Below, in pieces: positions 4,334 through 30,506 of a stretch of 64,000 nt of DNA. Under the pieces are notes generated by a model, which was not told where the DNA came from, made no database searches, and saw only the letters and a program-made list of their open reading frames with translations. Location of the stretch: positions 1 to 64,000 of the forward strand of contig MSGS01000009.1 in the NCBI GenBank assembly GCA_001940855.1. Reading direction: 5' to 3'. Each line of letters starts with the position of its first letter. The first letter of the stretch is position 1. The stretch is from Christensenellaceae bacterium Phil1 (lineage in GTDB: Bacteria; Bacillota; Clostridia; Christensenellales; CAG-138). The translations under genes were made by a program, and so were the position numbers.

Positions 4334-4384
4334 AAAAGCAGAGTGTCCATTACAGGATACTCAGATCCTATAAGGACACTCTGC
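4332..4384 (-). terminator. Rho-independent terminator of tRNA-Val
   Basis: Reading on the minus strand, an 11-bp perfect stem (GCAGAGTGTCC, 4338-4348, with GGACACTCTGC, 4374-4384) is followed by six T. The loop itself contains a smaller hairpin (AGGAT/ATCCT). It starts one base past the tRNA CCA end. The T-tract coincides with the stop codon of the mobile-element gene coming from the left. Confidence 0.85.
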
Positions 4385-4385
4385 A

Positions 4386-4462
4386 TGGTGGGGATGGAGG
4401 GGCTCGAACCCCCGACCTCTTCGATGTGAGCGAAGCGCTCTAACCAGCTGGGCTACATCCCC
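4386..4462 (-). tRNA. tRNA-Val, anticodon CAC
   Basis: 77 nt including an encoded CCA. On the minus strand the acceptor stem is GGGGATG/CATCCCC, the anticodon arm is CTTCG-CTCACAT-CGAAG giving anticodon CAC (reads GUG), and the T arm is GGGGG-TTCGAGC-CCCTC. The cloverleaf is complete. The gene stands alone and its 3' side borders an integrated element, a usual situation for tRNA-associated islands. Confidence 0.97.
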
Positions 4463-28909: not shown

Positions 28910-28939
28910 TTGCATTTTACCCCCACAGCATGATATAGT
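28910..28939 (+). promoter_or_regulatory. Promoter of the uraA leader
   Basis: TTGCAT (28910-28915), 18-nt spacer, TATAGT (28934-28939). Placed so that transcription begins upstream of the leader peptide. Confidence 0.6.
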
Positions 28940-28981
28940 AATCGGCAGAAAAAATGCGGAAGCGAAAGGACGGTGCAAAAA

Positions 28982-29062
28982 ATGCTTGGTTTCATGAACA
29001 GAACGCCCCTTACCACCTTCTTTCCCTATTCCCGCTTTTCAATATTTAACGGACGGATTTAA
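28982..29062 (+). CDS. Leader peptide of the uracil permease gene (attenuator)
   Basis: A 26-codon ORF (MLGFMNRTPLTTFFPYSRFS ...) preceded by AAGGACGG. Its mRNA is pyrimidine-rich just before the hairpin (CTTCTTTCCCTATTCCCGCT). Its stop codon TAA lies inside the loop of the terminator at 29,052-29,077. A ribosome following closely would therefore melt the hairpin. This is the arrangement of the pyrBI attenuator, where UTP shortage slows polymerase in a U-rich tract and lets the ribosome catch up. The Phe-rich peptide could also be simply a result of the U-rich RNA. The identity of the downstream gene as a uracil permease supports a UTP-sensing role. Confidence 0.6.
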   Translation: MLGFMNRTPLTTFFPYSRFSIFNGRI

Positions 29063-29077
29063 TATCCGTCTTTTTTT
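29052..29077 (+). terminator. Intrinsic terminator inside the uraA leader
   Basis: GACGGAT (29052-29058) and ATCCGTC (29064-29070) form a 7-bp stem with a 5-nt loop, followed by seven T. It overlaps the end of the leader ORF and stands 68 bases before uraA, which has its own GGAGGT ribosome binding site. Confidence 0.85.
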
Positions 29078-29144
29078 ATGTGTGCAATGGGCCGCAAGGC
29101 TCTCGCAATAATATTTAATCATCACGCAGGAGGTAACTTTCGCA

Positions 29145-30506
29145 ATGAACCAGAAAAACGAAGGCATTTACGACGCCAGAGGCCAGCTTGGTTGGCCCAA
29201 GACAATCGTACTCGGCTTCCAGCATATGTTCGCCATGTTTGGCGCAACGGTGCTCGTGCCCGCCCTTACTGGATTGAGCGTATCGGCCACGCTGCTGTTC
29301 GCCGGTCTCGGCACGCTGCTGTTCCATCTTTTGACCAAGCGCAAGGTCCCCGCATTCCTGGGTTCTTCCTTCGCCTTCATCGGCGGCTATGCGGCAATAG
29401 CGCCCATGCTTGAGGGTCCGGCAAACCCCGGCGTATTCAACGTGCCCAATACCGAGCTTCTGCCCTATGCCTGCTTCGGCGTGCTGATAGCCGGCCTGAT
29501 GTACGTCATCCTTGCCGCCTGCTTCAAGATTTTCGGCATGAAGAAAGTTATGCGCTTCTTCCCGCCCATCGTGGTAGGCCCCATCATAATCTGCATCGGT
29601 CTCACCCTTTCATCTTCCGCCATCAATAACTGCAATACCAACTGGCTCATAGCGCTGCTTGCCATCGCGGTCGTAATAATCTGCAACATTTGGGGCAAGG
29701 GCATGATAAAGATAATCCCCATACTGCTCGGCTTCCTTGTGTCCTACATTGTGGCTGCCATCTGCGGCGAAGTTGACTTCACCCCCGTTAAGGAGGCCGC
29801 CTGGATAGGCCTGCCCTTCCATATGCAGGATACCGTAATAGGTCTGCTCTCCAAGCCGGACCTTGATACCGGCCTGCTCGTGACCTCTATCTTCACCATA
29901 GCGCCCCTTTCCCTCGCCACCATGGTTGAGCATATCGGCGACATTTGCGCCATATCCTCCACCTGCGAACGCAACTTCATAACCGACCCCGGCCTGCACC
30001 GCACCCTGCTGGGCGATGGCCTGGCCACCTCCCTCGCCGCCCTGTTCGGCGCCCCTGCCAACACCACTTACGGCGAAAACACCGGCGTGCTTGCACTCAG
30101 CAAGGTTTATGACCCCTTCGTAATCCGCATAGCGGCAGTGCTTGCCATAGTGTTCAGCTTCTGCCCCAAGTTTGCGGCTCTCATCCGCATAATGCCTGCG
30201 GCTACCATCGGCGGCGTATCAATGGTTCTTTACGGCATGATATCCGCGGTCGGTGTGCGCAACGTGGTTGAAAACAAGGTTGACTTCACCAAGTCCCGCA
30301 ACGTTATAATCGCGGCAATAATAATGGTGCTTGCGCTCGGCATATCCAACTCCGACGCCGGCTGCGTGACCATAGGCAGCATCAGCCTCTCCGGCCTGGC
30401 CGTAGCCAGCATAGTAGGCATACTGCTTAACGCCATACTTCCCGGCAAGGACTACGAGTTCGGCAAGGATGAGCAGGGCGATACCAGCGTAAACTTCAAG
30501 GTCTGA
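29145..30506 (+). CDS. uraA: Uracil/xanthine permease, NCS2 family
   Basis: A 453-residue membrane protein with about 14 hydrophobic segments and NCS2 hallmarks: the opening LGFQHMFAMFGATVLVP, the helix-8 carboxylate region ATMVEHIGDICAIS and the transport segment FGAPANTTYGENTGVLALSK. The group with these motifs includes proton-linked uracil permeases; xanthine or uric-acid transport is a less likely alternative. RBS GGAGGT precedes the start. The leader peptide and internal terminator upstream suggest control by pyrimidine nucleotide supply. Confidence 0.88.
   Translation: MNQKNEGIYDARGQLGWPKTIVLGFQHMFAMFGATVLVPALTGLSVSATLLFAGLGTLLFHLLTKRKVPAFLGSSFAFIGGYAAIAPMLEGPANPGVFNVPNTELLPYACFGVLIAGLMYVILAACFKIFGMKKVMRFFPPIVVGPIIICIGLTLSSSAINNCNTNWLIALLAIAVVIICNIWGKGMIKIIPILLGFLVSYIVAAICGEVDFTPVKEAAWIGLPFHMQDTVIGLLSKPDLDTGLLVTSIFTIAPLSLATMVEHIGDICAISSTCERNFITDPGLHRTLLGDGLATSLAALFGAPANTTYGENTGVLALSKVYDPFVIRIAAVLAIVFSFCPKFAALIRIMPAATIGGVSMVLYGMISAVGVRNVVENKVDFTKSRNVIIAAIIMVLALGISNSDAGCVTIGSISLSGLAVASIVGILLNAILPGKDYEFGKDEQGDTSVNFKV

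Follow-up and report, generated by a model that had tools for sequence, protein, structure and literature searches.

The uracil permease gene uraA of Christensenellaceae bacterium Phil1 is preceded by a short leader open reading frame (ORF) that ends inside an intrinsic terminator, and the same arrangement recurs before uraA and pyrB in related genomes in which no PyrR is found. The layout, its conservation, the choice of downstream genes, and the exclusion of PyrR are direct observations. The best explanation, to which we assign a probability of ca. 0.7, is that the leader is a pyrBI-type transcription attenuator that would sense UTP through coupling of ribosome and RNA polymerase. Pausing, coupling, and the role of UTP as the signal are inferred; they rest on analogy with E. 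coli and on the downstream genes being uraA and pyrB. The stretch of DNA analyzed (the window) is 64,000 nucleotides long, and the features of the uraA leader region within it (the query) are as follows:

28910-28939, plus strand: σ70-type promoter (TTGCAT, 18 nt, TATAGT), read from the sequence
28965-28973, plus strand: Shine-Dalgarno (SD) element of the leader ORF, AAAGGACGG, read from the sequence; paired with the tract in the predicted fold
28982-29062, plus strand: leader ORF of 26 codons, MLGFMNRTPLTTFFPYSRFSIFNGRI, read from the sequence; shuffle probability 0.002
about 29005-29040, plus strand: pyrimidine/U-rich tract, probable RNA polymerase pause region, based on T fraction across leaders
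29051-29077, plus strand: intrinsic terminator (attenuator) with stem GGACGGAT/ATCCGTCT, loop TTAAT, and seven T, from sequence and fold
29145-30506, plus strand: uraA, NCS2-family uracil permease, presumed regulated gene, from profile matches

A preliminary description had listed a promoter, a 26-codon ORF with its own ribosome-binding site, a pyrimidine-rich stretch, and a seven-T terminator with the leader stop codon in its loop. All of these are present in the sequence, so the description of the layout is accurate and the observation is real. The promoter is of modest strength and was missed by a stricter promoter scan; by inspection, 42 nt lie between the end of its -10 box and the leader start codon (the best pick of the script lay further upstream). 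The leader ORF begins with ATG at 28982 and ends with TAA at 29060-29062, within the terminator loop. The hairpin occupies positions 29051-29071 and the seven T positions 29071-29077; the hairpin alone has a ΔG of -11.2 kcal/mol (z -4.3), and none of 200 shuffled sequences folded equally well. A segment of the U-rich tract, 29014-29024, is predicted to be able to pair with the SD region. The downstream gene matches profile TIGR00801 with 319 bits, above the cut-off, and NF007995 (uracil permease) with 322 bits, below its cut-off of 477. The query thus combines the elements by which pyrBI-type attenuators are recognized, i.e., a promoter-proximal, SD-led ORF, an overlapping terminator, an upstream U-rich tract, and a downstream pyrimidine gene.

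Related loci were scanned with a detector that required a hairpin followed by a T-run, plus an ATG or GTG ORF, 12-50 codons in length and preceded by a good SD, with its stop codon located anywhere from 6 nt before the stem up to the stem end. The first sample consisted of 80 uraA loci from public genomes, plus relatives of the window itself. Terminators are present in 35 uraA upstream regions; in 15 of these, an SD-led ORF ends in the hairpin, compared with 0.37 expected when the sequence preceding each hairpin is dinucleotide-shuffled. At the query, shuffled sequence upstream of the hairpin yields such an ORF with a probability of 0.002. Loci L036, L048, and L065, where the SD is weaker or the hairpin rich in A+T, were added (L036 on visual inspection), and the first-sample leader set used for PyrR and tree labels numbered 18, including the query. 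When both strands of the 80 uraA loci were scanned, all 14 matches lay directly before uraA. Over 918 kb of the query genome (both strands), three matches were obtained among 124 hairpin-plus-T candidates: two GTG ORFs elsewhere and the query site, which alone starts with ATG and alone precedes a pyrimidine gene. The surroundings of pyr operons (464 kb, both strands) yielded one match, which precedes pyrB of the closest uraA relative. Among 55 ordinary terminator-bearing genes of leader genomes, the stop codon was never located inside the terminator. A Fisher value for the stop-to-stem distance was set aside as circular, because the leaders had been selected by stop position. A chance ORF is ruled out by the shuffles and by the base rate at other terminators.

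The preliminary description had proposed a comparison with related genomes, and the ORF with its stop codon in the hairpin indeed recurs in many relatives. A second sample was drawn from genomes near G069 and contained 22 uraA loci absent from the first set. With SD and hairpin thresholds slightly lowered, the layout was detected at seven of these loci (L285, L287, L306, and L309-L312), the SD matching at 5 or 6 of 6 positions in all seven. In five of the seven cases, the uraA product shares no more than 57-59% identity with the L042 protein. Within the family of the query, the same layout with ATG starts is present at four pyrB loci (L251, L252, L254, and L257), while pyrB loci L241 and L243, which have GTG starts and weaker SDs, were recognized by inspection. 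The device therefore also precedes the gene pair after which pyrBI attenuation was named. At L031, the closest relative by uraA (80% identical), neither leader nor terminator precedes uraA, although pyrB of that genome has one. In the query genome itself, the pyr operon starts with pyrC and has a short leader without a terminator and no such attenuator, and the device was not found before upp or carA of leader genomes.

Several side observations were made in the course of this survey. The query genome contains pyrC, K, D, F, E, B, and I and no CarA above the cut-off (best match 48 bits versus 307), which reflects either an assembly gap or a real loss. At L062 and L071, the uraA leader is of another kind: its terminator lies around CCTTGTCC...GGACAAGG, there is no SD-led ORF, and the genomes have no PyrR above the cut-off; L059 and L097 have a terminator of similar sequence, and the L059 genome has PyrR. 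At pyrB, L244 (genome G032) and L256 (genome G011) share near-identical terminators, AACATCGGTT(TTNT)AACCGGTGTT, located behind a T-rich tract; both genomes are PyrR-less, and no clear SD-led leader ORF is seen at these two loci. A Gut-1 RNA (RF01706) lies directly downstream of uraA at L039, positions 4376-4451.

Leader length varies between 18 and 43 codons, the stop codon being placed at the earliest 2 nt ahead of the stem and at the latest 27 nt inside the hairpin. For 19 of 23 related leaders, 27-46 nt separate the end of the best -10 box from the start codon, and the gap between the hairpin and the gene ranges from 35 to 121 nt. The 30 nt before the hairpin have a T fraction of 0.40, compared with 0.25 in the preceding 30 nt (n = 23 leaders; paired Wilcoxon p = 0.0017, a value that is indicative only, since the leader sequences are related). 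The corresponding fractions in the second sample are 0.48 and 0.27, with the higher value before the hairpin in all seven leaders; at ordinary terminators of the same genomes the T fraction is 0.22-0.23. The encoded peptides share no sequence and contain no single-residue run beyond that set by the T-rich tract, and they differ even among close relatives (L042 and L047, L038 and L040). Between L042 and L285, 15 of the 75 leader bases differ, with no codon position favored (nine nonsynonymous and four synonymous codon changes); there was no indel, and the stop was identical. Loss of the ORF frame in close relatives, which the preliminary description had named as evidence against the device, is thus not seen in this pair, in which the peptide drifts and the frame and the stop are kept.

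By analogy with E. coli, the device would operate as follows. RNA polymerase would start at about position 28946 and transcribe the leader ORF. When UTP is plentiful, the polymerase would outrun the ribosome, and the hairpin would form and stop transcription before uraA. With UTP in short supply, the polymerase would pause in the U-rich tract, allowing the leader ribosome to catch up. The terminator could then not form, because a ribosome positioned at the stop codon inside the hairpin would cover its 5' arm; uraA would be transcribed, and uracil would be imported. In E. coli, a stop codon placed 5 bp before a terminator reduces termination from about 90% to under 10% (PMC4824070), and the terminator of pyrBI is contained within the leader gene (PMC4824070). 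The resemblance of the leaders to such stop-proximal and pyrBI terminators, together with the lack of stop codons inside the 55 ordinary terminators, argues for UTP sensing by coupling. The classification of Bacillota as runaway transcribers (PMC13323073; review PMC7858274) counts against this reading, since a ribosome would not normally catch the polymerase, an objection that the pause tract may answer in part. Also weighing against it are uraA of L031, which has no leader, the pyr operon of the query genome, which has no such attenuator, and the difference in stop position from E. coli pyrL. Purine bias and stop-to-terminator distance, considered as indicators of coupling, favor neither side: the purine fraction of the query genome is 0.531, and ordinary terminators start 7-90 nt after the stop codon.

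The leaders share with pyrL, the leader of pyrBI in E. coli and Salmonella, an SD-led ORF near the promoter, a T-rich tract, a terminator that overlaps the ORF, and a downstream pyrimidine gene. The 44-codon pyrL ORF of E. coli K-12, however, extends across the whole terminator and ends only three bases short of pyrB, whereas the leaders described here stop in or at the hairpin (as the detector required; the query was read directly). The preliminary description had equated the geometry with that of pyrBI; the overall layout is indeed pyrBI-like, but the two are not identical, as the pyrL ORF passes the terminator that here contains the stop codon. The device is also found more often before uraA than before pyrB, unlike in the pyrBI case. 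No sequence similarity between these leaders and pyrL is evident, so common descent is unsupported and convergence is the simpler reading; a device of the E. coli type seems to have arisen independently in Clostridia. At the E. coli rph-pyrE attenuator, translation ends close to the terminator, and when UTP runs short the hairpin is masked by the ribosome at the stop codon. The placement of the stop codon is similar there, but the translated gene, rph, is a full enzyme gene, and here it is a dedicated short leader ORF. Within Bacillota, leader-peptide attenuation is also represented by the histidine leader peptides of bacilli (hisS*, hisZ; PMC2965389), which, unlike the leaders described here, sense an amino acid through regulatory codons. 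According to a 2010 survey, Firmicutes leader peptides were known only for hisS relatives in bacilli and for the ermC type (PMC2965389). Neither a pyrBI-like attenuator nor a leader-peptide attenuator of uraA turned up for Bacillota in the open-access papers searched, which are part of the literature.

A leader ORF combined with a terminator could also sense translation itself, with a ribosome stalled by amino acid shortage, an antibiotic, or an arrest peptide setting the state of the terminator (trp- or erm-type control), and ribosome-mediated leaders are known in Bacillota (bacilli hisS, PMC2965389). This alternative is unlikely. The peptides lack the shared sequence or residue run that it calls for, and a regulatory codon run of trp/his type is likewise absent. 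No competing antiterminator over the 5' arm of the terminator was found in the leaders, pairing of this arm with upstream sequence being like that of shuffles (mean z -0.7). In amino acid attenuators, more than 20 bp separate the leader gene from the terminator (PMC4824070), while here the terminator and the ORF overlap, and the downstream genes found are pyrimidine genes.

Another alternative takes the pyrimidine tract as a loading site for Rho, with leader translation being protective and the hairpin secondary. The tract is C/U-rich, and the query genome (G000) has Rho (598 bits), which also scores above the cut-off in G009 and G021. In leader genomes G062, G069, G101, and G139, on the other hand, no Rho was found above the curated cut-off, yet the tract, the ORF, and the hairpin are kept. 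Rho is therefore not required in general; the Rho-only reading is disfavored, and we consider it very unlikely.

Control of the terminator by PyrR or another protein, with the ORF being incidental, would match the usual situation in relatives, where 28 of 79 labeled uraA loci have pyrR immediately upstream of that gene. PyrR attenuators of Bacillota (RF00515) also resemble the query in having a premature terminator before pyr genes, including uracil permease, but are protein-sensed, while the leader genomes lack PyrR. The query genome contains no PyrR (best match 38.5 bits versus a cut-off of 138). In the first sample, PyrR above the curated cut-off was found in none of 18 leader genomes, compared with 10 of 20 leaderless genomes examined, some of which had been picked for pyrR adjoining uraA; in the second sample, the corresponding numbers were 0 of 7 and 5 of 15. 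Taken together, PyrR is present in 0 of 25 uraA-leader genomes and 15 of 35 leaderless ones. It is also absent from all six pyrB-leader genomes, which belong to a set where 26 of 61 have it. The PyrR binding loop (RF00515) was matched neither in the window nor in 20 leader loci, the sensitivity of the model being modest in this group (one distinct site was found in a control on PyrR genomes). Since, in addition, the leader ORF is far beyond chance expectation, we regard protein control as highly improbable. A PyrR-binding antiterminator, the other finding that the preliminary description had set against its proposal, was not found in the leader, nor PyrR in the genome. The same description had held the device to be unexpected in a Clostridial genome; the surprise is lessened, though only partly explained, because the device is confined to PyrR-less genomes. 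In a uraA tree (FastTree), leader genes and pyrR-adjacent genes are interspersed, and the leader label needs at least nine changes. The uraA genes seem to have switched between PyrR and leader more than once, by in-place change or by gene transfer.

That the leader ORF, which has its own promoter, SD, and terminator, is a gene for a small functional peptide unrelated to uraA control is scarcely credible, given that the peptides are unconserved even between close relatives and that ordinary terminator-bearing genes do not place their stop codon inside the terminator.

Returning to the UTP-sensing attenuator, pairing of the SD with the U-rich tract, which is frequent in the predicted folds of the leaders, is a further leader feature for which there is moderate support. 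The predicted SD-tract duplex exceeds in strength those formed with shuffled tracts (mean z -1.1, p = 0.0002, n = 23) or with tracts of other loci (p = 0.005), in a test conceived after the folds had been seen. In the second sample, the effect is similar but not significant alone (mean z -1.0, p = 0.08, n = 7), and the 8-bp SD-tract match of E. coli pyrL is no better than in shuffles. We suggest that the pairing might either keep late ribosomes away from the SD or serve as a pause hairpin. In the former case, the tract, once clear of the polymerase, would pair with the leader SD and shut off late ribosome entry, so that loading of a ribosome would be possible only as long as the polymerase is moving slowly through the tract. 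The more specific idea that PyrR-less Clostridia evolved, independently of enterobacteria, a UTP sensor of their own that combines an ORF end in the terminator with an SD-tract fold-back timer is plausible but, on balance, doubtful.

The leaders appear to provide a recurrent and independent case of textbook enterobacterial coupling-based pyrimidine attenuation in PyrR-less Clostridia, with the stop codon placed differently. The device deserves notice given the classification of Bacillota as runaway transcribers, and it offers a direct natural test of local transcription-translation coupling in this phylum. If an independently evolved sensor with a fold-back timer does operate, ribosome and polymerase would be able to couple at chosen leaders even in runaway transcribers, and pyrimidine control would have switched repeatedly between PyrR and coupling. 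The finding also suggests how PyrR-less gut bacteria may regulate uracil uptake.
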